DNA of 20,806 bases from a virus: IMG/VR virus record IMGVR_UViG_3300020158_000331, positions 1-20,806 of that record; one strand, 5' to 3'. The notes below the pieces were generated by a model, which worked only from the letters and a program-made list of their open reading frames with translations, made no database searches and was not told the origin of the DNA. Shown here one piece after another: positions 1 through 17,818 of this stretch. The position numbers and the translations under genes are program-made. How positions within the stretch are numbered: the first letter of the stretch is position 1; each line of letters begins with the position of its first letter.

Positions 1-1086
1 TCACTCCTCATCCACCAAACTGCGCCGCTGCTGCGGTGACAGCTTGGCAAAGGCATCTTGGTAAGCCTGCCCCGACAATCGTGACATCTGCTCTATCACA
101 TCCCCGTTGGAATTCGGCGTAGACGCCACTGGCAAGCCCCGTAGCGTAACCGGCGCCTTCTCGGCAGGCTGCCGATCGGGAACCTTCTCAGATGCAACCG
201 CAACTGGCGCTGCCGGTGTAGCCGCCTTGACCACCTTAGCTTCTTTCACAGCAGACGCAACCACTGCCGCAGCAACCGCCGGATCGACCTGCACCTTCCC
301 CACCCCACCCCGCAGCGCCAATACCACCCGGTGCGCTTCATCAACCAGGTCGCCGAACTCCAGAGCCGCATTGTCCGGATCAGCCTGCAAGGTGCGCAGC
401 ACCACATCAAAGCTCTTTTGTGCCTTGGTGTCCTTCGAATAATCAACATCCGCCTTGGCTCGTGCAATCAGCCGACGAATCTCCGACTGCTGCATAGCCT
501 GCTGGTTCTGCACATTGGCTTCGCTAAGCGTTTCCGAACGAATCCGCTGCGCCGTCAAATCTTCCAGTGCATTGGAAACCCGTGATTCGATGGCAGAGAA
601 CGCCTCCAGATCGAGCTCACCATCGATGAGCTTCTTCATGGCCAGGGCTTTTTCTTTCAGAAGCACACCACGCTGCTCCTGATAGTCGGCCGGCAGTTCC
701 GTCTGATAGGTCGGAATCTGGGGCTCTGGCGCCTCTTTGGCAGTTTCCTTTACAGGCTCCGGCGCCGCGGCTTGTGGCTCTTGAGCAGCCTGTGCATCAG
801 CATCCTCGACCGGCTCCGCCGGCGCCTCATCTTTCGCATTGGGCTGCGCATCAATGCCCTCCTCGCCTTGCTTCTCCGCGTCCGAAGCTACGGCGGCATC
901 CTTTTCTGGCGGGGCATCGACAACCTCGGAAACGGCAATTGGTTCATCTGGCTCATCGATGACTTCCTTGGCGCCAATCACCGGCGGATCAAACTCATCA
1001 TCGCCAAACGGATCCAGCCCTGCAGCACGTTCACGTGCAATGTCGGCCAGTACGTCGGTCTCGGTGGGTGTTGCTACAAGGCTCAT
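1..1086 (-). CDS. Probable scaffold-like protein of the head module
   Basis: A 361-residue protein, directly downstream of the portal gene, where P22-like phages carry the scaffold gene. Residues 1-120 are acidic and rich in Ala, Pro and Glu, so probably disordered. Residues about 130-270 look mostly helical, an Ala/Val/Pro-rich linker follows, and the C-terminus (about 330-361) is a short amphipathic helical segment ending in charged residues. P22 scaffold is about 300 residues and also strongly helical. I see no catalytic motif. I chose the ATG at 1086 because AAGGA lies 9 bases upstream; a TTG three codons earlier sits too close to that site. The scaffold role rests on position and composition, not on a recognised domain. 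It could instead be another head accessory protein. Confidence 0.6.
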   Translation of the reverse strand: MSLVATPTETDVLADIARERAAGLDPFGDDEFDPPVIGAKEVIDEPDEPIAVSEVVDAPPEKDAAVASDAEKQGEEGIDAQPNAKDEAPAEPVEDADAQAAQEPQAAAPEPVKETAKEAPEPQIPTYQTELPADYQEQRGVLLKEKALAMKKLIDGELDLEAFSAIESRVSNALEDLTAQRIRSETLSEANVQNQQAMQQSEIRRLIARAKADVDYSKDTKAQKSFDVVLRTLQADPDNAALEFGDLVDEAHRVVLALRGGVGKVQVDPAVAAAVVASAVKEAKVVKAATPAAPVAVASEKVPDRQPAEKAPVTLRGLPVASTPNSNGDVIEQMSRLSGQAYQDAFAKLSPQQRRSLVDEE

Positions 1087-1110
1087 GATGTTCAATCCTT
1101 CAAGGTTGGT

Positions 1111-3303
1111 TTAAAAAGTTGGGGTTGGGTGCGGTGCAAGTGACACCTGCACGCCATCAGCGCGCTGCGTCTGTATGCCAGCCATCGCCCCATCAGCTTG
1201 CTGCGCCGGCGGAATAGTTGTCGTCATGCCTGGCGCCGCTGCCGTCACGTTGTCGCGCGCCACCGCCGGATCAATGACAGGCCCGGGCGCATTCGAATCC
1301 TGAAAGCCTGCGGCCTTCAGCAATTCATCCGCAATCGGCGTGATGCCCGGCGCCACGGCCAGCACCTGGGCTGCCTGCGCGCTCATGTACAAGCCCTCCA
1401 GTCGCTTGGCCATGGCTTCAGCTTCAAGCTTTTCACCCTTGGCTTCAGACTCACGGATGCTGGCTTTGATCTGCGCCATCTGCGCCTCAAACTGGGCTTG
1501 CGCCACTTGCTGCTGTTGTTGTTTGGCTGCCTGTTGCTCCGGTGTTTCCTTGCCATCCGGGTCAGACTGACCATTGACCTGACGGATACGCTCCAGAATC
1601 GCTTTCTTTCTCGGCAGGTTGGGATGCATCTCGAACACCACATCGAGCATGCCCACCACCACCTGGGGTGCAGAAGACGCCAATTGCGACAAGACCTGCA
1701 TCAAGGAATCAAACGCCGCTTCGGCATAAGAGAGCTTCCAGGCCTGCTCGCCAATCACAAAGCTGGCCTTGCGCTGCGTGATGTCATTCAGGAAGGTTCC
1801 ATCATCCTGCGGCTGATTCAGCTTGGCATAGTCGTACTTGTTGCCTTCATGGGCGACTCTGATCGTCAAAGGTTGGGTCAGGAACTGCTCTGCCAAGCTG
1901 AGCGTAATCTCGCCTTCCATCTGCCGGGCAAACAACAGGTTGTCAAACAGCTCCATGGTCAAGAGACTGCCCTGCTCCTGCTTGGCCATCACCGCCTTGC
2001 CGCTGGTCACATTGGAATTGCGCCCCATGTTGTCGGCGTTCACGCCTGACATGTTTCGAATGGACGCGCTGTCGTTCTGCGCCATCTGCAGCTGAAACTG
2101 GGCCCGGCTCTCGTTGCCGCGCTCCTGCACCTTGCCACCCGACAGGGCGCCATTGGCAAAGACTGCGGTGCCGTCCGGTGCATCAAGCTCCCGCCTGATC
2201 TCGGCCAGGTCCATCACTTCCGCATCAATGGCGCCGACTTCCATCTTGATCTGGTTGGCACTGGCCTCGTACAGGCTGCGGCTCATCCGGTGGTTCAGTG
2301 CTTCCTGCGGCCCAAGGAGCGGCAGAATCGGTGAATACGGCATGCCGGTGCGCTTGTTCCGATACGCCCATACCGGAATGAACGGAAACAAATCGTGCTT
2401 GAACGGGCTCCAGGCCTCGATCAAGGTGTCCTTCTCGGTCATCACCGCACAGCACATGCGCCAGCTCACACCGTCGGCCATGCCGGTAACGGGATGAAGC
2501 TGGGCCTGTGGCTCCCGGCTCCAGCACTCGATCAGCAGAATGCGCTCTCTGGGGTTGAACAGATCAACCGGCCGTGCCGTCATGTAGTCCAGTTCATCGC
2601 CATTGCCGGGATTGAAAGAATCCATGCCGGCCAACAGACCAGAGCCACCGAGCCAATCCCTAAAGATCGTGACATCATCACCGGTCTGAACGCAGCGGTC
2701 GATCTGAATTTTCTTATTCGGGAAGAGGGCTTCGGCCACATCCCGGTCTACGACCTTGATGCGAAACAGGTAGCGTGCATCTGACAGATCACGCTTGGAC
2801 CCTTGGCTGTCGTAGAGGATGTTGCGCCAGGATTCGGCACCAATGTAGATCGGCGGCCCGGACGGATCGCCCCTGAGTCCCACTTCCATCCAGCCCAAGC
2901 CGGCTTTGAACGCGTCCTCAATCGCATAGGAGCGCTCAAAGACTGCCCGGTTCGCATCGTCCAGGTACTTCAGCAGTTTGGTCTTGAGGGTCGCATCGTC
3001 GCTGGCAGCCTCACCTTCATCGGCAGCCACCACCACAAAGTCCACCCGGCTCTTGCGCTCGGTGCCGATCAACCAGTCAATGGTCGGCTTGACCTCATTG
3101 AACACAACCGGGTTCTGGCCACGCTCCCGGACGCGCTCGGCATCCTCGTGTTCCCACTGGGTACCGTCATAGAAACCCTCGCACTTGGCCATCATGGCGC
3201 GGTTGGATGCCTGGCGTGATGCTTCTGCCAGAAACCAGCTCTTGCGCTTGTCATGGCGTGCACGCACTGAAGCATCGTCCATCTTCAGGGTTGGGGCCTT
3301 CAT
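1111..3303 (-). CDS. P22-like portal protein
   Basis: The portal forms the dodecameric ring at one capsid vertex through which DNA is pumped by terminase and to which the tail attaches. The 730-residue length matches the P22 portal (725 residues). The N-terminal third has the typical P22-portal pattern, including NPVVFNEVKPTIDWLIGTER (residues about 64-83) and the helix around KTKLLKYLDDANRAVFERSY (about 108-127). The C-terminal region has a glutamine run and a long charged helical stretch, like the barrel part of P22-type portals. The start at 3303 overlaps the stop of the upstream gene as ATGA, which argues against an in-frame start 19 codons earlier. The gene lies between terL/ORF167 and the scaffold-like gene. 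Confidence 0.9.
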   Translation of the reverse strand: MKAPTLKMDDASVRARHDKRKSWFLAEASRQASNRAMMAKCEGFYDGTQWEHEDAERVRERGQNPVVFNEVKPTIDWLIGTERKSRVDFVVVAADEGEAASDDATLKTKLLKYLDDANRAVFERSYAIEDAFKAGLGWMEVGLRGDPSGPPIYIGAESWRNILYDSQGSKRDLSDARYLFRIKVVDRDVAEALFPNKKIQIDRCVQTGDDVTIFRDWLGGSGLLAGMDSFNPGNGDELDYMTARPVDLFNPRERILLIECWSREPQAQLHPVTGMADGVSWRMCCAVMTEKDTLIEAWSPFKHDLFPFIPVWAYRNKRTGMPYSPILPLLGPQEALNHRMSRSLYEASANQIKMEVGAIDAEVMDLAEIRRELDAPDGTAVFANGALSGGKVQERGNESRAQFQLQMAQNDSASIRNMSGVNADNMGRNSNVTSGKAVMAKQEQGSLLTMELFDNLLFARQMEGEITLSLAEQFLTQPLTIRVAHEGNKYDYAKLNQPQDDGTFLNDITQRKASFVIGEQAWKLSYAEAAFDSLMQVLSQLASSAPQVVVGMLDVVFEMHPNLPRKKAILERIRQVNGQSDPDGKETPEQQAAKQQQQQVAQAQFEAQMAQIKASIRESEAKGEKLEAEAMAKRLEGLYMSAQAAQVLAVAPGITPIADELLKAAGFQDSNAPGPVIDPAVARDNVTAAAPGMTTTIPPAQQADGAMAGIQTQRADGVQVSLAPHPTPTF

Positions 3304-3803
3304 ACCAGCGCCTCCGTCAATCGCTTGCCGGTGTGCTTGTCGGTGGCAACGATCTCCCACATCTTCTGGCTTTCCAGATCAAGCCGGATGTGTCGTGGCG
3401 TGACCGGCATCAGCACCAGGTCAGGTGCAAAGGTGATCACCACCTCGCACAAGGCGTGCAGAGCTTGCCTGTCGTTTCTGTCCTTGCCCATGACCACCAG
3501 TGCTTCCCGGGCTTCCCGAAAGCAGTGCGGGCTAGGGTTGCCGGTACAAGTGCCATCGGCATTGAATCCAACAAACTCGGTGATGGCACGCCGGCCGATG
3601 ACCCATACTCCGGAATCGGAACACCCTTGCAGGAACACATTGGTCGCCGCCCAGATGCACAGGCAGGGTTGTGATTTCTTGCCCTCACCGATCCATTCCA
3701 GCGAGACATTGAAGCCCTTGCGGGTAGCCTGCTTCCAGGAATGCCGGTGTCCGACGGCAAAGACAGGTTCACCATGGGGCGACAGAATGGGTGACAGATG
3801 CAT
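3300..3803 (-). CDS. Conserved-looking protein between TerL and portal, unknown function
   Basis: A 167-residue soluble protein with no signal peptide, membrane segment or motif I recognise. It contains several Trp and Cys residues and a segment (residues about 20-110) that reads like a compact alpha/beta domain. It starts at ATG 3803, preceded by a strong ribosome-binding site (GGAGG, 5 bases upstream). This start overlaps nothing essential, but the binding site lies inside the last codons of terL, so the genes are coupled. Its stop overlaps the portal start as ATGA. The tight fit between the motor and portal genes suggests a role in packaging or head completion, but that is only inferred from position. 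Confidence 0.7.
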   Translation of the reverse strand: MHLSPILSPHGEPVFAVGHRHSWKQATRKGFNVSLEWIGEGKKSQPCLCIWAATNVFLQGCSDSGVWVIGRRAITEFVGFNADGTCTGNPSPHCFREAREALVVMGKDRNDRQALHALCEVVITFAPDLVLMPVTPRHIRLDLESQKMWEIVATDKHTGKRLTEALV

Positions 3804-3805
3804 GG

Positions 3806-5074
3806 CTACCTCCAACTGCGGGTTCGTTGCTTGAAGGAACCAATGGCATCGTTAGACGCATTGCTCATCAGATCGATGGCCTGGCCCAGATACCGAAAGG
3901 CATCCGCACCGTGGCTGTACTCGTCATGCCGCGGGGCCCCGGGCTCATTGGTTGCCTGGTTAACATCGCGCCGGTAGCGCTTCAGGCATTCCAGCAGTCG
4001 GGCCGTCTTGCCCTGATCGAAGTAGCAGCGTGGCCAGAGCAGTCGGGCTGCCTTGATGCCTTCTTCCACACTGGTCTGGGGCAACACATGGGTCTTGCGC
4101 TTGAGCTCACCCAGCAGTTCTTCCGTACTCTTGCCAGTCTGGAAGTTTCTGGTCCGACCATCGTGCGGGATGTAATCGGTACCGAAGCGGTAGGGGCGCC
4201 GTTCCAACTCCGCAACGTACCAGTCCAGGGTGCGGTTGTTGTCCTCGATGTAGTCGATCAGCCGCACATCCATAGGGGTACGCTGCACAAAGACGATGGT
4301 CATGGCATCGTTCCAGCCCAGGTCCCAGACTGTGTGCACTGGCAGCATGGGGTCGTACGGAACCAGTCTGACCCTGCCGTCCTTGAAGACAGCGTCGATC
4401 TCATGGCGGTAGATGGCGCCTTCAGCCACCCGGCGCGGTTTGCCTTCCCAGATGTGCTCATAGCTTTCCGGATCACGCGCCTGCGCCTTGAGGCGTTCTT
4501 GCTCCAGGACTTCTGGAAACCATGGGTTGTCACGCCAGTTGACTTCGCAGAGCCAGGTATCAGGACTGGGTGCCGCAATGAACCTGACGTAGGTTTCATC
4601 GGTATCCATGTCGGGGTTCAAGGTCAACCAGATTTCTGAGTCGGGCTTGCGGATGGTGGGGATCAGGACATCCCAGCTGCGTTTGGAAACCCCGTGTGCT
4701 TCCTCGACCCAGCAGCGGTCCACGCTCTCGTAACTTTTTATGGAATCAACCGTGTGCGATTGCAAACCGCAGAACAGGAACAGGCTGCCGTTCTTGCCCC
4801 GGATTTCGGTATCGAGCACCTCATAAAACTCGGAGAAGCCAAGTTCTTCGATCTGGTCTCTGAGCAGCCGGTGAACAGAGTCCTTCATGGACTTCTGAAC
4901 TTCCCGGGCGCACAGAACGCGAAGTGGCGTGCAGAAAGCGGCGATGAGCAGTGCTCTGGCCACACCCCAGGACTTGGCACCACCGCGACCGCCATAGAGA
5001 ACCTTGTAGCGCATGGGACGCATCAAGGGTTCGAGGACCTGCGGAAACTGGGGGGTGATGTGGATTTCATTCAT
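3806..5074 (-). CDS. terL: Phage terminase large subunit (TerL), PBSX/Terminase_3 type
   Basis: The ATPase-nuclease that cuts phage concatemers and drives DNA into the prohead. The 422-residue length is normal for the PBSX-like class. The N-terminal ATPase domain shows Walker A GGRGGAKS (residues 28-35), a Walker B strand ending in VEEA with the catalytic Glu at about 124-125, and the coupling motif TLNP (151-154). The C-terminal RNase H-like nuclease shows VWDLGWNDA with the metal-binding Asp at 251 and HDEYSHGADAFRY (383-395) with Asp 391. All key residues are present, so the enzyme should be active. The start overlaps the terS stop as ATGA, the usual arrangement of the two subunits. Confidence 0.95.
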   Translation of the reverse strand: MNEIHITPQFPQVLEPLMRPMRYKVLYGGRGGAKSWGVARALLIAAFCTPLRVLCAREVQKSMKDSVHRLLRDQIEELGFSEFYEVLDTEIRGKNGSLFLFCGLQSHTVDSIKSYESVDRCWVEEAHGVSKRSWDVLIPTIRKPDSEIWLTLNPDMDTDETYVRFIAAPSPDTWLCEVNWRDNPWFPEVLEQERLKAQARDPESYEHIWEGKPRRVAEGAIYRHEIDAVFKDGRVRLVPYDPMLPVHTVWDLGWNDAMTIVFVQRTPMDVRLIDYIEDNNRTLDWYVAELERRPYRFGTDYIPHDGRTRNFQTGKSTEELLGELKRKTHVLPQTSVEEGIKAARLLWPRCYFDQGKTARLLECLKRYRRDVNQATNEPGAPRHDEYSHGADAFRYLGQAIDLMSNASNDAIGSFKQRTRSWR

Positions 5075-5511
5075 CGCGGCTTGGCTGTGACGTAGGTGAT
5101 CTCCACCGTGTGTTTGATGGCTTCACCATTGGCACCAGTCACTTCCATCTTGTCGGTGAACATCTTCAGATGACGACCTTCGAGCTCAAGTGCCTTGAGG
5201 GCACCGGCGTGATTGGCCATCAGGCTGTTGCCGTCCTTGTCGATCACCTGCTTCATGGCATCGGTCTTGACCCTTTGAAGGTCCGTCAAAACGTCATCCG
5301 CTTTGCGCCTAACGCGTTTGGAGCGGGCGTTCATCAATTCCTGGATGCGCGCAGCAACCCAAGTTTTTCCAAGTAGTTCGGGGCCGATCCGTGAGGCTGT
5401 CTTGGCGCTGTAAGCAGCACGCACGGCCGCCTTGGTCGCGTTCAGGTCAACCAGATACTCCTGGCAGAACAGCACTTGCTTTTTAGTCAGCGCCTTCTTG
5501 CGCGTCGACAT
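5071..5511 (-). CDS. terS: Phage terminase small subunit (TerS), Terminase_2 type
   Basis: The DNA-recognition subunit of the packaging motor, which binds the packaging site and hands DNA to TerL. The protein has 146 residues. Residues about 6-60 form the Terminase_2 helix-turn-helix region, with the typical TKKQ..FCQEYL.D.NAT.AA..AAYS pattern followed by a basic segment KRVRRK. The central part is helical (oligomerisation), and the C-terminus is short and beta-rich. ATG 5511 is preferred over a GTG two codons upstream, because GGAG lies 8 bases before the ATG but only 2 before the GTG. It is the first gene of the leftward packaging block; the promoter for this block is not obvious in the 190-base gap upstream. 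Confidence 0.88.
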   Translation of the reverse strand: MSTRKKALTKKQVLFCQEYLVDLNATKAAVRAAYSAKTASRIGPELLGKTWVAARIQELMNARSKRVRRKADDVLTDLQRVKTDAMKQVIDKDGNSLMANHAGALKALELEGRHLKMFTDKMEVTGANGEAIKHTVEITYVTAKPR

Positions 5512-5707
5512 GAACACATCTCCAGAATTGTTTCGTTCTGGAAAGTGTCAGAGGGAATGTTTCGGAGTCAACGGGTCGGTTTGACGAGCCGCAGCCAGGC
5601 AGGGGCTGAGAATGAAATTCGGGTGAGTGGTGAATTGCTTTTTTTACGCTTATTTGGTGGGCTATAGTGAGCTACGTAACCGCATATAGAAACTTGCTGA
5701 ACCATCA
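5512..5707. other. Divergent intergenic region between terS and the HNH gene
   Basis: About 190 bases without a gene. It is rich in A+T towards the HNH side. A TATAGT at 5663-5668 could be a -10 box for the rightward cargo genes, but no -35 box with good spacing is present. No terminator or clear repeat was seen. It may hold the packaging recognition site, which cannot be judged by eye. Confidence 0.35.
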
Positions 5708-6466
5708 ATGAACGTAACGCCTCATCCCTACCTCGAATACCCTGAGTCACTCAATTACATACAGGACGCTGCCGTAAAAGAGGCGTTCGAATACCTTGTC
5801 AGCAGTGCGCAGCATATCCCGGGTTACACAGCGCGCCCTAAGCCCCATGGATACATCACGCGTAATCTTCACTACTTCGACGCGCCTAACACCTCACCTT
5901 ACGCATTCACTGTCAACCGGCATTGGCTTCTTTTTTATCTTAGGTCGCCCGCGCAGACGCACCCCGACATCAGCGTGGAAAAACTTCAGCAGACATTTGC
6001 TGACGCGAAAGTTCTCGATGATGGGCAGATAACGTTCAAGATCCGAACGCTTGCTGATGCCCAGTCCGCAATGCAGTTGATTTTTCCAGGACTTGCAATC
6101 ACCGCAGAATATGCATCACCTGACGAGATACCAAACAGCGCTTCCTATGTTGAGGGCGCATCGACAGTGGTTCACGTCAACAGCTTCGAGAGAAATCGGC
6201 ATGCGCGAGAAGCGTGTATCCGACACTACGGTTACAAATGCAACGTTTGTGGCTTTAGTTTCAGCGATGCCTATGGCGCGATAGGCGAGCAATATATACA
6301 CGTTCACCACGTGGTTGAGCTGGCATCAATCCGCGAACAATATGAAGTTGACCCTATTCGCGATCTCCGACCAGTTTGTCCCAACTGTCACGCCATGCTG
6401 CATCGAAGGTCGCCGGCGCTCACCATCGAAGAATTGAAGCGAAACTTAAATCGCAGTCATCAGTGA
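5708..6466 (+). CDS. McrA-like HNH endonuclease (predicted restriction-type nuclease)
   Basis: A 252-residue protein. The C-terminal half carries a complete HNH/beta-beta-alpha-metal nuclease of the McrA/COG3183 type: zinc cysteines CNVC (C178, C181) and CPNC (C224, C227), the catalytic HVHH (H198-H201), and DLRPVCPNCHAMLHR with N226, H228 and H232. Residues 1-150 form a separate domain that I do not recognise; it has a YAFTVNRHWLLFYLRSP segment and may sense the substrate. HNH proteins next to terminase genes often help packaging. This one, however, is on the opposite strand, has a large extra domain and is paired with a second nuclease gene, so a cargo or defence role is more likely. No methyltransferase gene is adjacent. 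No clear ribosome-binding site precedes the ATG. Confidence 0.85.
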   Translation: MNVTPHPYLEYPESLNYIQDAAVKEAFEYLVSSAQHIPGYTARPKPHGYITRNLHYFDAPNTSPYAFTVNRHWLLFYLRSPAQTHPDISVEKLQQTFADAKVLDDGQITFKIRTLADAQSAMQLIFPGLAITAEYASPDEIPNSASYVEGASTVVHVNSFERNRHAREACIRHYGYKCNVCGFSFSDAYGAIGEQYIHVHHVVELASIREQYEVDPIRDLRPVCPNCHAMLHRRSPALTIEELKRNLNRSHQ

Positions 6467-6527
6467 TCCATGATCATTAACCGTCGCAGCATTCACCCAA
6501 CATCATCAGATTCACATTTAGGGCAAC

Positions 6528-7088
6528 ATGACTTCAATAGCGTTGCAACATGCCCAGCAAATCTACCTGCACTCGACACCGGTACTCCATATTCAGGGAA
6601 TTGGAGGCAAACGGTGGAAAAGAAATGTTGCTAAAGGTGGAAGGATTGGACCGTGGCTACAAGCTAATTATTCCGTCCTCGATCGCAAGGTCTGGGAACA
6701 TCGCGTCCCATCCTTGTACTTGGTGAGTGGATCCGACGGAAAAATTAGATATGTTGGAATCTCAAGAAATCGAATGAAGGACCGGTGGCGAGAGTCCCCA
6801 GCATATGATGCAGAAACAATGGTTCGTCTTCCCAAAAACCAGCTATTTCATAGCCAGTGTTGGAAGCAAATTGAATTGGAAACAAACGTCAATCCAGCAG
6901 CGACGTTTGAGGTACGCTGCATAGACGCTGAGGCATTACTTCCTCTCCTCATAAAGTTAGGGCCGCCACTCTCCGCATTCATCGCACTTGGAAATGATAG
7001 TGAAGGCATCGTGGCTGGAGTAGAGCGATGGCTCTGCAATAACAAGAGTGACGTTTTGGTGACATGGAACATTGCAATGACCAAATAG
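6528..7088 (+). CDS. Probable GIY-YIG-fold nuclease
   Basis: A 186-residue protein, 61 bases downstream of the HNH gene on the same strand, so probably cotranscribed. Residues 62-88 fit the GIY-YIG core: SLYLV (first motif), a hairpin SGSDGKIR, YVGIS (second motif) and RMKDRW, whose Arg 86 lines up with the catalytic Arg 27 of I-TevI. The metal-binding Glu would be E116 or E118, in the helix after CWKQIE. The first motif is LYL rather than GIY, so this is a divergent member. The N-terminal 60 residues and C-terminal 60 residues are unassigned. Base composition is more A+T-rich than the flanking phage genes. A weak AGGG lies just upstream of the ATG. Nuclease activity is an inference from the motif. 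Confidence 0.62.
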   Translation: MTSIALQHAQQIYLHSTPVLHIQGIGGKRWKRNVAKGGRIGPWLQANYSVLDRKVWEHRVPSLYLVSGSDGKIRYVGISRNRMKDRWRESPAYDAETMVRLPKNQLFHSQCWKQIELETNVNPAATFEVRCIDAEALLPLLIKLGPPLSAFIALGNDSEGIVAGVERWLCNNKSDVLVTWNIAMTK

Positions 7089-7107
7089 CGGCAACAAATC
7101 CGCCCCA

Positions 7108-7317
7108 CTAGCACCAAAACAACGCCCCCTGGTAAGCCCGGTTAGATTTGACCTTGCCGGCAAGCATCATCATCTCCAACCGGTGTCGTGCCTTGAGCTT
7201 GGCCTCGCGACAGGCCAGCGCAACGCCCGGGTGCATCTCCACCTGACGCGCCGTTGATGGCCCGAGTTCTAACAACGCAGCCAGGATTGCCTCTTCAATT
7301 TCTTGCAGTTTATTCAT
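7108..7317 (-). CDS. Small winged-helix-like protein
   Basis: A 69-residue protein. The sequence reads as a compact helix-turn-helix with a wing: helix 1 EEAILAALLELG, a turn and recognition-helix candidate TARQVEMHPG, then a helix with REAKLKARHRLEMMMLAGKV and a terminal beta strand NRAYQGALFWC. This is typical of small phage DNA-binding proteins that test whether genes are switched on at low cost. It is the last gene of the leftward early operon. Its start lies inside the end of the upstream gene (ATGAATAA overlap), so the two are translationally coupled. The target is unknown. Confidence 0.6.
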   Translation of the reverse strand: MNKLQEIEEAILAALLELGPSTARQVEMHPGVALACREAKLKARHRLEMMMLAGKVKSNRAYQGALFWC

Positions 7318-7579
7318 GACTGTGAAGGAATCCTGGTTTGCATCGGTCCACGTGCATCATCTCTAAACTCTTGATCTGGGTGCAGTCGCAGCAATAGTCA
7401 AAGCCCAGGTTGAACACGGGCTCGCCGTCGACCACCAGAATTACCCGCGGCTCGCCCTTATGGTTTTGCACAGCCGCTGCGCTCTTCAGATATTCCACCC
7501 ATTCCAAGCGGTTCAGAAAGCATGGTGGTGGCGGCGGATGCAGATCGGCAACGGCGTCGTTGAGGTTGATTCGTGCCAT
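7310..7579 (-). CDS. Small Cys-rich phage protein, unknown function
   Basis: An 89-residue protein whose start at ATG 7579 has a strong GGAGG 7 bases upstream; an in-frame ATG/GTG-type start 20 codons further up has no such signal. The sequence shows a proline run, then RVILVVDGEPVFNLGFDYCC, and a cluster CCDC...C that could bind zinc. No family is recognised. Genes with the tail DYCCDCTQ...H.D.C look like small early phage proteins whose role is not known. It lies 1 base after the DUF3310 stop, in the leftward early operon. Confidence 0.6.
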   Translation of the reverse strand: MARINLNDAVADLHPPPPPCFLNRLEWVEYLKSAAAVQNHKGEPRVILVVDGEPVFNLGFDYCCDCTQIKSLEMMHVDRCKPGFLHSHE

Positions 7580-7580
7580 G

Positions 7581-7790
7581 TCAGGCCTCCCGAAGCTCGA
7601 TGAGCTTGTCCAGATAGTGACGCGCCTTGCGCAGGTCATCCAAGCCGCCCTTGTCCTTCCAGCGACTGACGTACTTCACGATGTTGCCCTCGAAGTAGCC
7701 AAGCTCGTTGGCTGCAATGTAGTCCCAAGGCTGAATCGCTTTGGACTTGTAGTGGGTGCCGCCGACCTGGGTTTGATTTGCGTTTTCCAT
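7581..7790 (-). CDS. DUF3310 family protein
   Basis: A 69-residue protein that matches the DUF3310 pattern through most of its length: VGGTHYKSKAIQPWDYIAAN, then GNIVKYVSRWKDKGGLDDLRKARHYLDKLI. This family is common in phage early regions and has sometimes been annotated as a nucleotide kinase-related protein; its biochemical role is not established. ATG 7790 is preferred; a TTG six codons earlier is the only other option in frame. It is transcribed away from the iteron array, after the primase gene. Confidence 0.85.
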   Translation of the reverse strand: MENANQTQVGGTHYKSKAIQPWDYIAANELGYFEGNIVKYVSRWKDKGGLDDLRKARHYLDKLIELREA

Positions 7791-7824
7791 GTCCGTTCCA
7801 ATCAGCAAACGTGCAAAAACTTAC

Positions 7825-8004
7825 TGTCACCACTGTCACCACTAAAAGGTGGTGACGCCAACCTTTCCCTGAAAAAACAGGTATATATCCCTCTCCTACA
7901 GCATCTACTTAAAGAAGTAAGTGGTGACAGTGGTGACAGTGGTGACACCCCAATGAAAATCGTGTCACCACCTGAGCAAATCGAAGTGGTGACAGGTGGT
8001 GACA
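7825..8004. repeat. Iteron array, GTGGTGACA in both orientations; candidate replication origin
   Basis: The 9-base word GTGGTGACA occurs eight times without mismatch. On the plus strand it starts at 7921, 7930, 7939, 7986 and 7996. On the minus strand it occupies 7825-7833, 7834-7842 and 7963-7971. A ninth copy at 7849-7857 has one mismatch. The copies at 7825/7834 and at 7921/7930/7939 are head to tail with a 9-base period. The two blocks form an exact 19-base inverted repeat around an A+T-rich segment (7861-7920) that includes GTATATATCC. The array fills the gap between the primase-helicase gene and DUF3310. Iterons beside a primase-helicase gene fit a phage origin; the P4 alpha protein binds comparable short iterons. 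The function is inferred. Confidence 0.75.
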
Positions 8005-8033
8005 AAACCCCACCACACCGGTGTTGAGTGACA

Positions 8034-10249: not shown

Positions 10250-10504
10250 TTAAGGCTGCTTGCCATTGCGCACAGTGGGCGACTCAATTAACTCGGGCCA
10301 TATTTTTTGCCAGTCCGTGGGATGCAGGTCCTTGCGGCTTACAACTCGATTGGTTGCCGCTTCAATCGCAACGGCAAACCGCACGGGGACTGGCCTGAGA
10401 CCTTTGCCCCAATCAGAGACATCTGATGGAAAGGCACCGATCTCAGCAGCCAGCCTTGTGGCTGCTCCTCGCCCCTGCTGCTTAAAGTACTTAAATAGGT
10501 TCAT
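10250..10504 (-). CDS. Cro-like (YdaS-type) DNA-binding protein
   Basis: An 84-residue protein with a helix-turn-helix: RGAATRLAAEIGAFPSDVSD, then WGKGLRPVPVRFAVAIEAAT and RVVSRKDLHP. The pattern of a VSxW...RPVP....IE.AT...V.R.DL.P tail is typical of the YdaS/Cro group of phage regulators. It is divergent from the repressor gene and is the first gene of the leftward early operon. The ATG lies exactly where transcription from the predicted promoter should begin, so the mRNA may be leaderless; no ribosome-binding site is seen. By analogy with lambda Cro it would bind the same operators and shut off repressor synthesis. Confidence 0.85.
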   Translation of the reverse strand: MNLFKYFKQQGRGAATRLAAEIGAFPSDVSDWGKGLRPVPVRFAVAIEAATNRVVSRKDLHPTDWQKIWPELIESPTVRNGKQP

Positions 10505-10510
10505 GTCCGT

Positions 10511-10539
10511 ACTATAGCGTAAGGCTAAATCACAATCAA
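10511..10539 (-). promoter_or_regulatory. Leftward early promoter (PL-like)
   Basis: Minus-strand sigma-70 promoter with -35 TTGATT (10534-10539), a 17-base spacer and -10 TATAGT (10511-10516). The predicted first transcribed base is 10504, the A of the cro-like ATG. Two repressor operators overlap it, one reaching 2 bases into the -35 box and one 2 bases into the -10 box. Confidence 0.75.
10515..10527. promoter_or_regulatory. Repressor operator O1 (TAGC-N5-GCTA)
   Basis: The palindrome TAGCGTAAGGCTA overlaps the -10 box of the leftward promoter. Extended to 16 bases and read on the minus strand it is TTAGCCTTACGCTATA, one mismatch from O3. Confidence 0.75.
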
Positions 10540-10550
10540 GCCTTTAGCTA
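10538..10550. promoter_or_regulatory. Repressor operator O2
   Basis: AAGCCTTTAGCTA is a slightly degenerate copy of the palindrome, 23 bases centre to centre from O1. On the minus strand it reads TAGCTAAAGGCTT and leads into the TTGATT -35 box, exactly like the distal operator of the rightward early promoter. Confidence 0.7.
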
Positions 10551-10562
10551 TATACTTTTTGT

Positions 10563-10575
10563 TAGCCTTATGCTA
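10563..10575. promoter_or_regulatory. Repressor operator O3
   Basis: The perfect-arm palindrome TAGCCTTATGCTA overlaps by 2 bases the -10 box of the repressor promoter, 25 bases from O2. Occupancy would repress the repressor gene, as OR3 does in lambda. Confidence 0.72.
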
Positions 10576-10579
10576 TAAA
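10571..10579 (+). promoter_or_regulatory. Repressor promoter (PRM-like), extended -10
   Basis: TGC-TATAAA at 10571-10579 is an extended -10 element. The base block at the -35 position (TATACT, 10551-10556) is poor, so the promoter should be weak or activator-dependent. The predicted start is near A10586, giving a leader of about 19 bases with AAGGTG (10595-10600) before the repressor ATG. Confidence 0.6.
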
Positions 10580-10604: not shown

Positions 10605-11189
10605 ATGAAACTGATTGACGACATTCGACGGGAAAATCTTGCTCATTTGAGAGAAGAATTAGGCGGACTGCGTCCATTGGCCCAAAGAACCGAGCGCAAT
10701 GATTCGCAAGTAAGTCAGTGGATTCAGGGATCAAAAAACTCCGGGACTGGAAAGCCGCGCGGGATGCGAAGCGACACGGCAAGATTCATTGAGAGCAAAT
10801 GCGGCAAATCTCAGGGATGGCTAGACACGGATCACACAAGCTTTTCCACGACAGGATCGACCACCCAGTCATCAGTTGGCAGCGTCACTCTGACACCTGC
10901 CACATCGCTCCTGCAAACCTTAGAAAGACTTGGCTTCTTTTTGTCAAATATTGCGGATGGCCAAAGGGACTTGGTGTCACGAAAGCTTGCCGCCTTCGCG
11001 ATGGCCCCTGACAGTGTGCAATTAATGCACTCCTTGTATCAAACTATGGATATTGGTAGCGATGATTTCCCCATCCCTCAACTGACCCAGGACGAGCTGG
11101 ACAGAGGACAGCGTCTGACTGATGCCGCCCATGCTGCTGCTGCTGTAAACTTAGCAGCAACTAAGCATGGCAAACAAAATACAGCCTGA
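10605..11189 (+). CDS. CI-type phage repressor lacking an autocleavage domain
   Basis: A 194-residue protein. Residues about 8-78 form a lambda-repressor-like helix-turn-helix domain: GLRPLAQRTERNDSQVSQWI is the DNA-binding core, followed by the loop GTGKPRGMRSDTARFIE and the CGKSQGWLDTDH end seen in phage CI proteins of Burkholderiales. Residues 80-105 are a Ser/Thr-rich linker. The C-terminal half is helical and lacks the Ser and Lys catalytic motifs and the Ala-Gly or Cys-Gly cleavage site of the LexA/S24 family. It should keep the lysogenic state by binding the TAGC-N5-GCTA operators, but induction cannot follow the standard RecA-stimulated route. AAGGTG precedes the ATG. The stop lies 23 bases inside the next gene. 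Confidence 0.8.
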   Translation: MKLIDDIRRENLAHLREELGGLRPLAQRTERNDSQVSQWIQGSKNSGTGKPRGMRSDTARFIESKCGKSQGWLDTDHTSFSTTGSTTQSSVGSVTLTPATSLLQTLERLGFFLSNIADGQRDLVSRKLAAFAMAPDSVQLMHSLYQTMDIGSDDFPIPQLTQDELDRGQRLTDAAHAAAAVNLAATKHGKQNTA

Positions 11190-11625
11190 TTTTCCGCCGC
11201 TGCTCGTCACACCCGGAGCAAACGTATTGACGCTCGATACGTTGCACCGAATTTGCGTGCAACAACAAGAAACCGACCGTCGAAAACAACTGTGGGACGG
11301 GTTTGCAGCGCTTTACACCCGCTTTCTTGACGCGGGGTTGGCCGGACTAGAACTGTGGGTTGACGGAGCCTTCATGACCTTTGTTCCCTCACCACGACAT
11401 GTGGATTGCGTTTTGTGGGTGCCTCAATCGCACGTCGACCAGTGCACAGACTCCCAATACAAAGACCTCCAGCAACTGCAAGATGGCCCAGCCGTAAAAA
11501 ACAAATATGGAGTAGAGTTGTGGGTACAACCACCGGAAGCGCCAAACAGCAACTTTTGGACGAGTTGTTTTTCGACCACCGGGGACGGCATTACTCTTAA
11601 GGGGTTTGCGAGACTTGCGCTATGA
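11167..11625 (+). CDS. DUF6932-like protein with a degenerate nucleotidyltransferase signature
   Basis: A 152-residue protein cotranscribed with the repressor: its ATG lies 23 bases before the repressor stop, and its own stop overlaps the next start as ATGA. The layout matches what I know of the DUF6932 family: PDFPPLLVTPG at the N-terminus, a helix with RRKQLWDGFAALYTRF, then GLELWVDGAFMTFVPSPRHVDCVLWV and a C-terminal GITLKGFARLAL. Family members usually show G-S-F followed by D-x-D, a nucleotidyltransferase-like active site. Here these positions read G67-A68-F69 and H78-V79-D80, so two signature residues differ and catalysis may be lost or altered. Its role is unknown; the position suggests a lysogen-expressed accessory function with the next gene. 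The family call is from memory of the pattern. Confidence 0.68.
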   Translation: MANKIQPDFPPLLVTPGANVLTLDTLHRICVQQQETDRRKQLWDGFAALYTRFLDAGLAGLELWVDGAFMTFVPSPRHVDCVLWVPQSHVDQCTDSQYKDLQQLQDGPAVKNKYGVELWVQPPEAPNSNFWTSCFSTTGDGITLKGFARLAL

Positions 11626-12524
11626 CTTCCTCACGGACTGATCATTTTTCTGAACAGACGAATGCCTGGAAACGTCGTGCTGAACAGCAGCCTAATAGTC
11701 GTGGTGCAGCCTTTTACGCTGACGGCTTTGCCAACTACGAACGGGCAAGTCGCAACGACCAAGCGCTAAGTACCGCAAAAGATGCCGGCGAAATGCTGGA
11801 TCTTCGTTTCATGGGACCTCGCACAGAGCGAGGAACTTTGCCAATGGGTCATTTTCTGGACATCATGACCCCGCTAAACCGCGCTTTTAACCATGCGGCA
11901 TACAGACTGCGTAGTGGAAAAGTGACCAGCCGTGTCAGTTCTGACATCAAAGGGGAAATTGCATTGCAGATGGCCGGTACCGGGTATGGCTCTGCCCGGA
12001 TATTTGTAACTGGCGATGCCCGTGAAGACCTAACCGGGGTAAGTTTACTGGGAGCAACGTTCAAGCAAACTTTTCAGTTATTGAACGCAAAATCTGAAGA
12101 CTTTTACGATGCTGTTGATGCCGTTGGCGGGACTGCAGCGCGTCACTTTGGTGAGGCGCTCCACCAAACTGACCGCCATGGAATGGCGGCCGAGTTCACC
12201 TGGATACGCCCACAAGATCCGCTGTCGTGGAAGGGGACACCTGCCGAAATAGATCGGGTTTGCTCACTGATAGACAGCACCGCAGAACCGGAAACTTTCG
12301 AGCAAATTCTGACGGGTCACGTCTCTGCGATGGCAGAAACTGGCAATCTGCAACTTCGCGTCGGGGCGGAAAAGACAAAAGTTCGCTTCCCTACGAGATT
12401 GATCGATCAAGTGCAACGCTTGGCCTTAGGGCGGGACGCAAGACTTCTCGTTCAGACCGCCCGCTACTGGGACGCTGTTTTGCAGAAGGACGTCTTTAAG
12501 CACACCCTGCGTGAAGTCACCTAG
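11622..12524 (+). CDS. Unrecognised 300-residue protein, last gene of the repressor operon
   Basis: No family is recognised. It is soluble, without signal peptide or membrane segment. Residues 1-55 are polar and possibly flexible. Residues about 58-195 read as one alpha/beta domain: DLRFMGPRTERGTLPMGHFL opens with a strand and then a helix (FLDIMTPLNRAFNHAAYRLR), followed by a GYGSARIFVTGD strand and a helical part containing FYDAVDAVGGTAARHFGEAL. Residues about 227-300 look like a separate small beta-rich domain (ILTGHVSAMAETGNLQLRVG..KTKVRFP). The start overlaps the upstream stop as ATGA, so production is coupled to the DUF6932-like protein, which may be its partner. A strong terminator follows 24 bases after the stop. 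A prophage exclusion, defence or toxin-antitoxin role is possible but not shown. Confidence 0.75.
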   Translation: MTSSRTDHFSEQTNAWKRRAEQQPNSRGAAFYADGFANYERASRNDQALSTAKDAGEMLDLRFMGPRTERGTLPMGHFLDIMTPLNRAFNHAAYRLRSGKVTSRVSSDIKGEIALQMAGTGYGSARIFVTGDAREDLTGVSLLGATFKQTFQLLNAKSEDFYDAVDAVGGTAARHFGEALHQTDRHGMAAEFTWIRPQDPLSWKGTPAEIDRVCSLIDSTAEPETFEQILTGHVSAMAETGNLQLRVGAEKTKVRFPTRLIDQVQRLALGRDARLLVQTARYWDAVLQKDVFKHTLREVT

Positions 12525-12547
12525 CTGATCCATTTTTATCGTGCTCG

Positions 12548-12573
12548 AACCGCCCTTGTAGGCGGTTTTTTTT
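12548..12573 (+). terminator. Intrinsic terminator of the repressor operon
   Basis: A 7-base stem AACCGCC / GGCGGTT with a 6-base loop (CTTGTA) runs into eight T residues. It closes the three-gene repressor operon and insulates it from the rightward early promoter about 75 bases downstream. Confidence 0.92.
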
Positions 12574-12636
12574 CGCGCAAAAAACATTGCTGGATTCAAT
12601 GCGATCTTTGAGCGTGAACATTTTTTGCTCTTAATG

Positions 12637-12649: not shown

Positions 12650-12676
12650 GCATTGCATTTAGCTTTCGGCTATATT
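12648..12676 (+). promoter_or_regulatory. Rightward early promoter (PR-like)
   Basis: Sigma-70 promoter with -35 TTGCAT (12648-12653), 17-base spacer and -10 TATATT (12671-12676). Start predicted near 12683-12684, giving a leader of about 30 bases. Both boxes are overlapped by repressor operators with the same geometry as the leftward promoter. Confidence 0.75.
12660..12672. promoter_or_regulatory. Repressor operator, proximal site of the rightward promoter
   Basis: TAGCTTTCGGCTA has perfect palindromic arms and overlaps the -10 box by 2 bases. The 16-base extension TTAGCTTTCGGCTATA fits the consensus shared with O1 and O3. Confidence 0.75.
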
Positions 12677-15206: not shown

Positions 15207-15278
15207 AAGCCAGCCGCCATGGAATCACTGATCGCCAATGGCGGCTCGCCCGCTTTGACCATGACCAGTCTGCTTGGA

Positions 15279-15302
15279 GGTGTCTCCATTCCTGGAGACA
15301 CC
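15279..15302 (+). other. RNA hairpin in the leader of the Rha-like gene
   Basis: GGTGTCTCC and GGAGACACC form a perfect 9-base stem around the 6-base loop ATTCCT, in the 159-base gap before the Rha-like ATG. No T run follows, so it is not a standard terminator. It could be a processing site, a protein-binding RNA element or a DNA operator. Confidence 0.6.
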
Positions 15303-15365
15303 CCGCATTGCCAGAGCCCTCCGCAATCCCAGCACCAGTGCCAACACATCACCAGAAAGTTTTCC

Positions 15366-16037
15366 ATGAATACAAACCAACTCGTTGCCATCATCAACGA
15401 CACACCCGCAGTCACCACCCTGGTGATTGCGCAAGAAGTGGGTTACGACCACGCATCAGTCATCAAGCTGGTTCGTGAACATATTGCGGATTTGGAAGAG
15501 TTTGGATTGACCAGATTTGAAATCCAGCCAAAAACGCCCGGCATCCGCGGTGGCTCGGATACCGAATACGCAATTCTGAACGAACAGCAGTGCGCGCTGA
15601 TTTTGACGTACTTGCGTAACAGCGACGTCGTGCGTGAATTCAAAAAGCGTTTGATCCGCGAGTTCTATGCCATGCGCGAAGAATTACGAATTCGAAAGGC
15701 CGCTCATCCGAGCGCGCCCAGGGTCAAAAACCCGGTTGCACAAGCTCAAATTTATTTGCTGGAGGAATTCGACAGGGTTGAGCAAGCGCAGCAACTCCTG
15801 AGCGCACGAGTCGATGCGGTGGAAACGCGCTTGAGCACCCAGGACACCACCTTCTACACGGTGCTTGGTTATGCCCGCAAGGCCGGAGCGTTTGTTGACA
15901 ACTTTAGGGCATCGGTCCTTGGCCGAAAGGCCAGTCGTTTATCGAAAGAGCGCGGCTATCCCGTTGCCGACGTGTCTGACCCGCGCTTTGGCATGGTGCA
16001 CAGCTACCACGTTGACATCTTGCAGGAGGTCTTCTGA
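15366..16037 (+). CDS. Rha-family phage regulatory protein
   Basis: A 223-residue protein. Residues about 10-105 match the Rha domain: PAVTTLVIAQEVGYDHASVI, a helix with REHIADLEEFG, then the strand pair with GGSDTEYAILNEQQCALILT and the helix KRLIREFYAMREELR. Residues about 150-223 form a second domain of the kind found at the end of phage antirepressors: YTVLGYARKAG, then LGRKASRLSKERGYPV and HSYHVDILQEVF. Rha proteins of phi80 and P22-like phages affect growth depending on host factors; the exact target is unknown. It could relieve the non-cleavable repressor, but this is speculation. The start at 15366 gives the family-like N-terminus; a frame extended to 15219 has no binding site and runs through the hairpin. 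Confidence 0.85.
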   Translation: MNTNQLVAIINDTPAVTTLVIAQEVGYDHASVIKLVREHIADLEEFGLTRFEIQPKTPGIRGGSDTEYAILNEQQCALILTYLRNSDVVREFKKRLIREFYAMREELRIRKAAHPSAPRVKNPVAQAQIYLLEEFDRVEQAQQLLSARVDAVETRLSTQDTTFYTVLGYARKAGAFVDNFRASVLGRKASRLSKERGYPVADVSDPRFGMVHSYHVDILQEVF

Positions 16038-17818
16038 AATCCACGCTGGTCTTCGACCTGGAGATCTACCGGGATTACTTCCTGGCCATGTTTGGCAACG
16101 TGGCCACGGGTAATACCCGGGCATTCGAACTGTTCGCAGATCACCCTCTGGACATGGACACGATCCGCTCGATTGTTGCCAAGTTCACGCTGGTGTCCTT
16201 CAACGGCAACAACTTCGACATGCCGTTGCTCTCGCTTGCCCTGTCCGGCGCAACCAACCAGGCGATCAAAAACGCTTCTGACGCCATCATCCTGAACAAC
16301 CTGCGCGGCTTCGCGCTAGAGCGAAAGTTCAAATTCAAGACCATGACAAAGGTCGATCACATCGACCTGATCGAAGTCGCCCCCGGCATGGTTAGCCTCA
16401 AAATTTATGGCGGCCGTCTGCACTGCAAGAAGATGCAGGACTTGCCGATTGAACCCAGCGCCAGTATCAGCGTTGCTGATCGTGAATTACTCAAGACCTA
16501 CTGCGCCAATGACCTACAGGTGACACAAGCGCTGTATCTAAAGTTGGCGCCCCAAATTGAACTGCGTGCGCAGATGGGCAAGACCTATGACTTGGAGTTG
16601 CGCAGCAAGTCCGACGCCCAAATCGCCGAGACGGTGATTCGAACCCAGGTCAAGGCCATCACCGGTGTGATGCCGGAGCGTCCCATCATCGAAGGCGGCA
16701 CCCTGTACCAGTACAGTGCGCCAAGCTATATCCGCTTTAGCAGCGCGCCACTGGAGGCTGTGCTGGCCATGGTGCAGGCAACGAAGTTTCGTGTCATTGA
16801 CAGCGGCAAGGTGATTGAGCCTGATGAACTCAAAAATGCCAAGGTCGCCATCGGCGCCAGTGTTTACCGCATGGGCGTTGGCGGCTTGCACAGCACCGAG
16901 AGTTCAACGTCCCACGTGGCAGATGAGAAAACATTGCTAATCGACCGCGATGTCGCGAGCTATTACCCCAGCATCATTCTGGGCTCTAGTCTGGCACCGG
17001 TCCACATGGGTGAGCCCTTCTTGCGTGTTTACCGTGACATCGTTGAACAGCGCCTGGCTGCCAAGCATGCCGGCGACAAGGTCAAGGCCAATGCGCTCAA
17101 GATCACGGTCAATGGGAGCTTCGGCAAATTTGGTTCTAAGTGGTCAACGCTGTACAGCCCCGACCTGCTGATCCAGACGACACTGACTGGCCAACTCGCG
17201 CTGCTCATGCTGATCGAAGCACTTGAGGTCGCAGGCATTGCGGTGGTCTCGGCCAATACCGATGGCGTGGTGATCAAGTGTCCTGTGAACAAGCAGGATG
17301 TCATGGACGATATCGTCTTTGAGTGGGAGACCTGCACTGGATTCAGTACCGAGGCCACCCACTACCGCGCGCTCTACTCGCGCGACGTCAACAACTACCT
17401 GGCTTTCAAGCTTGGTGGCGGCTTCAAGGCCAAGGGCGCTTATGCCAGCGCTGGTCTGTCCAAGAACCCATCCAATGAGATTTGTACCGAAGCGGTGGTG
17501 GCCTTTCTGAATGACGGCACGGCCATTGAAGACACCGTGCATGCATGCTGGGATATCAGCCGCTTTGTGACGATTCGCAGCGTCAAGGGCGGCGCCATTG
17601 ACCAGCAGGGTCATTACCTTGGCAAGGCGGTGCGCTGGTACTACAGCACCGCAGCGCAAGGTCCTATCCGCTACCGGCTCAACCATTACACCGTGGCCCG
17701 CTCCGATGGGGCACAGGCACTGATGGAGTTGCCGGACAAGTTTCCCAGTGATGTTGACTTTGATTGGTACATCGCTGAGGCCCAAACCATCCTCAAAGAC
17801 ATAGGGGCATGCACATGA
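16034..17818 (+). CDS. Family B DNA polymerase with 3'-5' exonuclease, apparent CTG start
   Basis: A 594-residue replicative polymerase if started at CTG 16034. Exonuclease motifs are FDLEIY (D8, E10), FNGNNFD and YCANDLQVTQ. Polymerase motifs are A: DVASYYPSII (Asp 306), B: KITVNGSFGKFG (Lys 356, Asn 360) and C: SANTDGVVI (Asp 410). Motif C has Asn where DTD is usual. The only ATG nearby (16088) would remove exonuclease motif I. Upstream to the in-frame stop at 16013 there is no ATG, GTG or TTG before that motif. CTG 16034 follows AGGAGGT (16024-16030) and overlaps the Rha stop as CTGA, matching the ATGA pattern of this operon. The short length fits protein- or RNA-primed phage polymerases of this type. 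Confidence 0.9.
   Translation: MKSTLVFDLEIYRDYFLAMFGNVATGNTRAFELFADHPLDMDTIRSIVAKFTLVSFNGNNFDMPLLSLALSGATNQAIKNASDAIILNNLRGFALERKFKFKTMTKVDHIDLIEVAPGMVSLKIYGGRLHCKKMQDLPIEPSASISVADRELLKTYCANDLQVTQALYLKLAPQIELRAQMGKTYDLELRSKSDAQIAETVIRTQVKAITGVMPERPIIEGGTLYQYSAPSYIRFSSAPLEAVLAMVQATKFRVIDSGKVIEPDELKNAKVAIGASVYRMGVGGLHSTESSTSHVADEKTLLIDRDVASYYPSIILGSSLAPVHMGEPFLRVYRDIVEQRLAAKHAGDKVKANALKITVNGSFGKFGSKWSTLYSPDLLIQTTLTGQLALLMLIEALEVAGIAVVSANTDGVVIKCPVNKQDVMDDIVFEWETCTGFSTEATHYRALYSRDVNNYLAFKLGGGFKAKGAYASAGLSKNPSNEICTEAVVAFLNDGTAIEDTVHACWDISRFVTIRSVKGGAIDQQGHYLGKAVRWYYSTAAQGPIRYRLNHYTVARSDGAQALMELPDKFPSDVDFDWYIAEAQTILKDIGACT

Follow-up and report, generated by a model that had tools for sequence, protein, structure and literature searches.

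Organization of the repressor-A-B operon

The stretch of DNA analysed here (20,806 nucleotides, called the window below) is a 20.8-kb virus record carrying genes for terminase, portal, primase/helicase, exonuclease, single-strand annealing protein, DNA polymerase and integrase. A 194-residue phage repressor is encoded on the + strand (positions 10605 to 11189; PHROG 12107 transcriptional repressor, 1.8e-25), and divergent from it, on the − strand, lies the gene of a Cro/YdaS-like regulator (positions 10250 to 10504; Pfam YdaS_toxin 3.9e-10, PHROG 35 8.5e-12). Two + strand genes follow that of the repressor. The first, A (positions 11167 to 11625), encodes a DUF6932/PDC-M63A protein of 152 residues, recognised through PF22014 and PADLOC and assigned a nucleotidyltransferase (NTase) fold from its AlphaFold2 model and structural matches. 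The second, B (positions 11622 to 12524), encodes a PDC-M63B/PHROG 6603 protein of 300 residues, characterised with PADLOC, PHROG and an AlphaFold2 model.

As the original prediction had it, both genes are coupled to the repressor gene: the repressor and A genes overlap by 23 nt (positions 11167 to 11189), and A and B have in common an ATGA at positions 11622 to 11625, an overlap of 4 nt. A and B are adjacent and co-directional, the arrangement by which PDC-M63 is recognised. We saw no obvious Shine-Dalgarno sequence 5' of A or B, which fits translational coupling of the two genes. That both are real genes follows from their homology (A to DUF6932, 4e-20; B to PHROG 6603, 3e-31, and to PDC-M63B, 1.8e-39).

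The strong terminator proposed behind B was also recovered. Stem-loop scanning and RNA folding place an intrinsic terminator at positions 12547 to 12575 of the + strand, closing the operon; its stem-loop (12547 to 12568), about 20 nt 3' of B, has 8 pairs, 5 of them G-C, followed by a T tract, and the RNA of a 61-nt stretch has a folding energy of −15.8 kcal/mol (z −2.1 compared with shuffles). The scan on its own is weak evidence, with 7 terminator-like sites found and 5.6 expected by shuffling, and the call therefore rests on the position and the T tract. No RNA element of Rfam matched around the operon.

Elsewhere in the window, the DNA polymerase gene (PHROG 1252, positions 15219 to 17818) aligns with its profile from position 70 onwards, and the gene immediately upstream of it is Rha/antirepressor-like; this polymerase gene may have had its 5' end replaced. 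The interval between the terminase and primase modules (positions 5708 to 7088, + strand) carries an HNH endonuclease gene together with a weak GIY-YIG match and is possibly a second cargo spot.

Operator-like sites and comparison with lambda rexAB

A motif search found four matches to TTAGCYTTNNGCTATA in the window, where 0.06 were expected. Three of these operator-like sites are located in the gap between the repressor and Cro-like genes (positions 10513 to 10528 on the − strand; 10537 to 10552 on the + strand, with 2 mismatches; 10562 to 10577 on the + strand), the two outer ones forming an inverted repeat of 94%. The fourth (positions 12659 to 12674, + strand, no mismatch) is found behind the A-B terminator, in the promoter region of the next + strand genes. 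From these positions, the repressor-A-B block is flanked by two operator-like regions. We infer that repressor, A and B are expressed in the lysogen, as had been proposed, and the operator-like sites, which were not part of that proposal, strengthen this view.

The comparison made at the outset with lambda rexAB is upheld as far as the place is concerned, since in both cases two genes separate the repressor from the next early promoter, with operators on both sides. It does not extend to the proteins. Neither has profile similarity to RexA (hhalign E 0.64 for A, 0.44 for B), and we rejected B as a RexA relative on the latter value. RexB is polytopic, whereas A and B are both devoid of a hydrophobic membrane segment (maximum 19-residue hydropathy of 1.12 and 0.74, respectively); a membrane effector was rejected on the same ground.

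A is an NTase-fold protein with a degenerate active site

The match of A to DUF6932 reached 73.1 bits, the Pfam gathering threshold being 27, and that to the PADLOC PDC-M63A model (6.3e-24) covers residues 7 to 151. The AlphaFold2 model of A, built on a 31-row alignment, has a pLDDT of 92.8. For neither model, that of A or that of B, did Foldseek find a PDB match below E 0.001, and our fold statements for both proteins come from a second look with VIA-align and from the agreement among the folds listed. For A the top VIA-align matches are all nucleotidyltransferases: AadA (Z 6.3, rmsd 3.5, 103 residues), HI0073, MNT antitoxins, cGAS and pol mu. The list is consistent, with modest Z values; this agreement, along with a weak profile match to the CD-NTase 6e0k (E 0.009), makes the NTase assignment of the model credible, in line with the nucleotidyltransferase-like character first attributed to A.

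The family motif of A, W-h-D-G-S-F-x-T-x-K-P-x-P-x-D-I-D, contains the signature GSX9DXD. In the window this site is degenerate (positions 11365 to 11406, + strand): G67 A68 stands for the family GS and H78 V79 D80 for DxD, with codons GGA GCC ... CAT GTG GAT. Among 75 distinct A proteins, 73 retain S68 and 74 retain D78; the window protein has the sole A68 and the sole H78, and is the only one lacking both S68 and D78. Its third acidic position is E, as in 10 of the 75, and it retains the other near-invariant residues R39, G67, P76, D80, K145 and G146. Active pol-beta-type nucleotidyltransferases have GS...DxD plus a third acidic residue; window A reads GA...HxD. A sequencing error behind S68A and D78H is unlikely, as the identical A protein is encoded on a separate contig (L028) whose primase gene differs by 6-8%.

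The behaviour of MntA mutants is instructive here. Nucleotidyl transfer by MntA is lost on changing GS to AT or DxD to ExE, the catalytic-site mutant D39E,D41E still binds HepT, and mutants of the GSX10DXD motif neutralise more weakly (PMC7641770). From the lost residues and these mutants, we predict that window A does not transfer nucleotides, though binding may persist. The loss of these residues is, like the four operator-like sites, a point beyond the original prediction.

B combines a helical hairpin, an alpha/beta core and an OB fold

The 300-residue product of the second gene had been called unrecognised, a description that does not hold: besides PHROG 6603, it matches the PADLOC PDC-M63B model from residue 50 to 299. 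Its AlphaFold2 model (25-row alignment, pLDDT 87.8) is made of three parts, all encoded on the + strand: a helical hairpin (residues 1 to 55, positions 11622 to 11786) with helices at residues 2 to 22 and 27 to 55, an alpha/beta core (residues 56 to 222, positions 11787 to 12287), and an OB fold (residues 223 to 300, positions 12288 to 12521). By VIA-align the OB fold, at about residues 223 to 300, superposes on the mtSSB Rim1 (Z 10.6, rmsd 2.0, 77 residues), and PriB and RuvA match too.

Glycines make up most of the conserved columns of B, joined by W194, a GS pair and two columns of arginine, in one of which the window has Q. Since no conserved acidic, histidine or catalytic-type residue appears in the alignment, a binding role is more likely for B than an enzymatic one. 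We found in B no HEPN match, no RX4H or RX4HXY motif and, with Pfam and PADLOC profiles, neither an HTH nor an M78 domain. The nearest viral model to the whole of B is a phage protein named DUF6575 (structural E 3.8e-13); among the 21 systems that Vassallo et al. validated, one contains DUF6575 (PMC9519451). The B core did not match DUF6575 (PF20215) by sequence, nor did the profiles of two PF20215 proteins from genomes; the likeness of the B core to DUF6575 stands as a structural hint.

The pair recurs beside unrelated phage repressors

Searching IMG/VR with window A or B singly returned no relative, and an alignment query was needed. When about 85,000 species genomes were scanned with A alone, 25 loci were recovered, from Pseudomonadota, Thermodesulfobacteriota, Chitinispirillia, Bacteroidota and Actinomycetota. 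Although A was the only query, B lies directly behind it in 22 of the 25, so the co-occurrence on which the proposal of a pair depended is real. The pair is not undescribed as had been thought: both proteins match the PADLOC models PDC-M63A and PDC-M63B, and the repressor-A-B order, at the rex place, is present in the annotated records of mEpX1, PhiR30_1, Erwinia vB_EhrS_59 and a Klebsiella prophage region. Of 5426 complete E. coli genomes, 18 carry the mEpX1 type. At two further loci (L032 and L104) the cassette lies behind S24-type repressors.

In the tree of B, an enterobacterial lambdoid clade stands apart from the window and its nearest relative, L029, with chromosomal copies in between. 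Some branches are long and the deeper joins unsure; the strongly supported branches imply that a place next to the repressor was acquired two or more times, and a single origin was seen in none of 200 bootstrap trees. Judged from this tree, the place beside the repressor arose independently at least twice, in the lambdoid and Comamonadaceae clades. By tblastx, L029 shares only A-B with the window, and the two repressors are without detectable similarity; similarity confined to A-B indicates that the cassette moves between repressors. L029 and the Pandoraea locus L030 keep GSX9DXD, their A proteins being 38% and 32% identical to that of the window.

L028, a contig of a Comamonadaceae metagenome-assembled genome, encodes A and B proteins unchanged from those of the window. 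The two DNAs diverge by 6-8%, primase included, up to about position 10350 and are nearly identical from that point to 13304. This sharp drop at the left edge of the immunity region points to an immunity block, A-B included, that was probably exchanged recently as one piece.

Shorter or solitary forms were also seen. In Chitinispirillia (L031 and L045, about 5441 to 5848), A is accompanied by a short B-like protein of 133-135 residues, and L056 encodes a B-like protein (positions 1068 to 2045, − strand; 1.3e-31) with no recognisable A alongside. Some neighbours of the chromosomal copies match PADLOC models, in an uncontrolled tally from which we draw no enrichment in defence islands.

DUF6932 proteins have several kinds of partner

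With the DUF6932 profile, proteins above the cut-off were found in 24 of the 395 genomes surveyed from the phylum of L036 (Chitinophagaceae) and in 17 of the 398 from that of L030. A co-directional open frame begins at or near the end of A for 73 of the 75 distinct A proteins, a few of these frames being probably spurious. The partners are PDC-M63B itself, a divergent B relative (hhalign E 8.5e-13) that in L060, L068 and L093 adjoins HsdR or HsdS genes, XRE-M78 proteins, hairpin-bearing HsdR, and free hairpin-like proteins of 65-76 residues. The XRE-M78 partner in L095, directly behind the DUF6932 protein, belongs to the PD-Lambda-2_B family (1e-75). In L036 (positions 658 to 8029), a type I restriction operon comprises a zeta-toxin-like gene, DUF6932 and, adjoining it, an HsdR with a B-type hairpin as its N-terminal 55 residues (hhalign E 5.9e-8).

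The common element of the family is thus likely to be A plus the hairpin, as far as profile comparison goes; the case of the XRE-M78 class and the free hairpins is no more than suggestive. The class I and class III (XRE-M78) hairpins match weakly (E 9e-4, probability 23%; class I set compared without the class II protein L076), too weakly for us to call them homologues, and the free hairpins gave no match.

Discussion

Established here are the operon anatomy, the membership in PDC-M63, the NTase fold modelled for A, the hairpin-core-OB build modelled for B and the repeated, independent recruitment of the pair beside phage repressors. We infer the function of the pair and the direction of control within it as follows. 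A-B would be a lysogen-expressed, toxin-antitoxin-like exclusion cassette of the PDC-M63 type, a reading that we hold with even confidence and doubt, this grade applying to the whole and not to each step. Repressor, A and B would be made from one prophage transcript, the pair being present while the prophage is silent, and would act on a superinfecting phage. A and B would bind each other through the B hairpin. In the family, catalysis is placed on A owing to its near-invariant active site and to the lack of one in B: A would be the catalytic half, nucleotidyl transfer arresting the cell or modifying a partner, and B the nucleic-acid-sensing half that holds A, reads an infection cue with its OB fold and releases A once phage replication exposes its ligand. 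In the window copy the transfer step was probably lost (S68A, D78H); A would act, if at all, by binding, and the nucleic-acid-binding part of B would be left as the active end. Since the catalytic step is probably missing, a binding-only or decoy role has to be considered for this copy.

Support for the cassette reading comes from the PADLOC models matched by A and B, the copies at the rex place, the origins beside repressors numbering at least two and the bracketing operator-like sites, as well as from the coupled gene behind A in 73 of 75 cases, the likeness of A to NTases including MNT antitoxins and that of the B OB fold to single-strand-binding folds. Relatives of A that precede PD-Lambda-2_B-like XRE-M78 proteins or a hairpin-tagged HsdR, or that have HsdR/HsdS genes nearby, point the same way. 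The toxin-antitoxin-like or defence association that had been suggested is supported, whereas anti-phage activity itself is unproven. The sole paper that we found naming PDC-M63, which also holds its sole published deletion test, reports that deleting PDC-M63AB from E. coli NILS69, where it is prophage-borne as well, left infection by ten phages unaltered; its authors note that their collection consisted of virulent dsDNA phages only (PMC12409345). We count this result against the cassette reading, together with the absence from window A of the motif that an MNT antitoxin needs for catalysis and the reversed orientation of PD-lambda-2, in which the second partner is toxic and the upstream one neutralising.

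Among known systems, the window pair is closest to PDC-M63, a two-gene PADLOC candidate family, and has the order and ATGA coupling of the lambdoid copies; it differs from its relatives in lacking S68 and D78 and in sitting behind the repressor of a non-lambdoid, Comamonadaceae-type phage. PD-lambda-2, a tested defence system (PMC9519451), consists of a HigB-like protein, an XRE-peptidase and a third component; some DUF6932 proteins occupy the place of the HigB-like gene, as in L095, but window B has neither the XRE HTH nor the ImmA/IrrE (M78) peptidase. With HEPN-MNT (HepT/MntA, type VII toxin-antitoxin) the window has in common a small NTase-fold protein coupled to a partner gene, and the family GSX9DXD is close to the GSX10DXD of MntA. 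However, the window partner is not a HEPN protein and has no RX4HXY motif, and window A is without the catalytic residues.

PD-lambda-2 (PMC9519451) and MntA (PMC7641770) are the reason for keeping the opposite orientation as a rival, unlikely though we think it: A would be an MntA-like antitoxin that binds and, in most relatives, nucleotidylates a nucleic-acid-binding toxin B, until infection tips the balance and B arrests the cell. MNT antitoxins are indeed among the fold matches of A, the XRE-peptidase of PD-lambda-2 is toxic and neutralised by its upstream HigB-like partner (PMC9519451), and as MntA D39E,D41E still binds HepT, a dead A could neutralise. Yet MntA mutants of the motif neutralise less well, B lacks a HEPN domain, the RX4HXY motif and conserved catalytic-type residues, and its replacement by free hairpins of 65-76 residues or by HsdR suits a handle more than a toxin. 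The pair might instead regulate the phage's own lysogeny or replication, the OB fold of B binding phage DNA, as lysogeny accessories and not as defence. The resemblance of this fold to SSB, PriB and RuvA and the tight coupling to the repressor agree with such a role; the occurrence of the cassette outside phages in several phyla and behind unrelated repressors, and of relatives adjoining restriction genes, makes it quite improbable.

The active-site changes raise two further explanations. Dead A and B could be a disarmed decoy that titrates out or blocks an active system, PDC-M63 or a related one, of the host or of a rival prophage. Two such changes within an intact, full-length A gene, and A and B proteins unchanged in L028 despite the divergence of the neighbouring primase, would suit this idea, but we identified no active close relative in the same hosts, L029 and L030 keeping the motif in A proteins of only 38% and 32% identity; we find it a shade less plausible than a lysogeny regulator. 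That the cassette is a passenger decaying in the window phage, with no present function, is very improbable: the lost active-site residues of A would be expected of it, whereas both frames are intact, the match of B to its model extends from residue 50 to the C terminus and A keeps R39, G67, P76, D80, K145 and G146.

A broader proposal, speculative and to our mind rather unlikely, is that DUF6932 is a portable NTase device docking on a short helical hairpin fixed to varied sensors (OB-fold protein, XRE-peptidase, HsdR) and yielding a set of toxin-antitoxin-like defence systems, with the window copy as a catalytically dead, binding-only regulator or decoy against active ones.

Altogether, the pair is real, conserved and well placed for a function in the lysogen, and was already catalogued as an unproven defence candidate. 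What is new is a variant with lost active-site residues, a second independent recruitment by phages, and the link through DUF6932 to restriction and PD-lambda-2-like loci. PDC-M63, catalogued yet mechanistically blank, gains a testable anatomy of NTase, hairpin handle and OB-fold end, and is tied through the common A protein to type I restriction operons and PD-lambda-2-like loci. Window A is a natural variant without active-site residues that separates binding from catalysis, and unrelated phages have placed the same pair beside their repressors at least twice. If the proposal of a portable device is true, DUF6932-hairpin defence systems would be of one kind, so far unrecognised as such.
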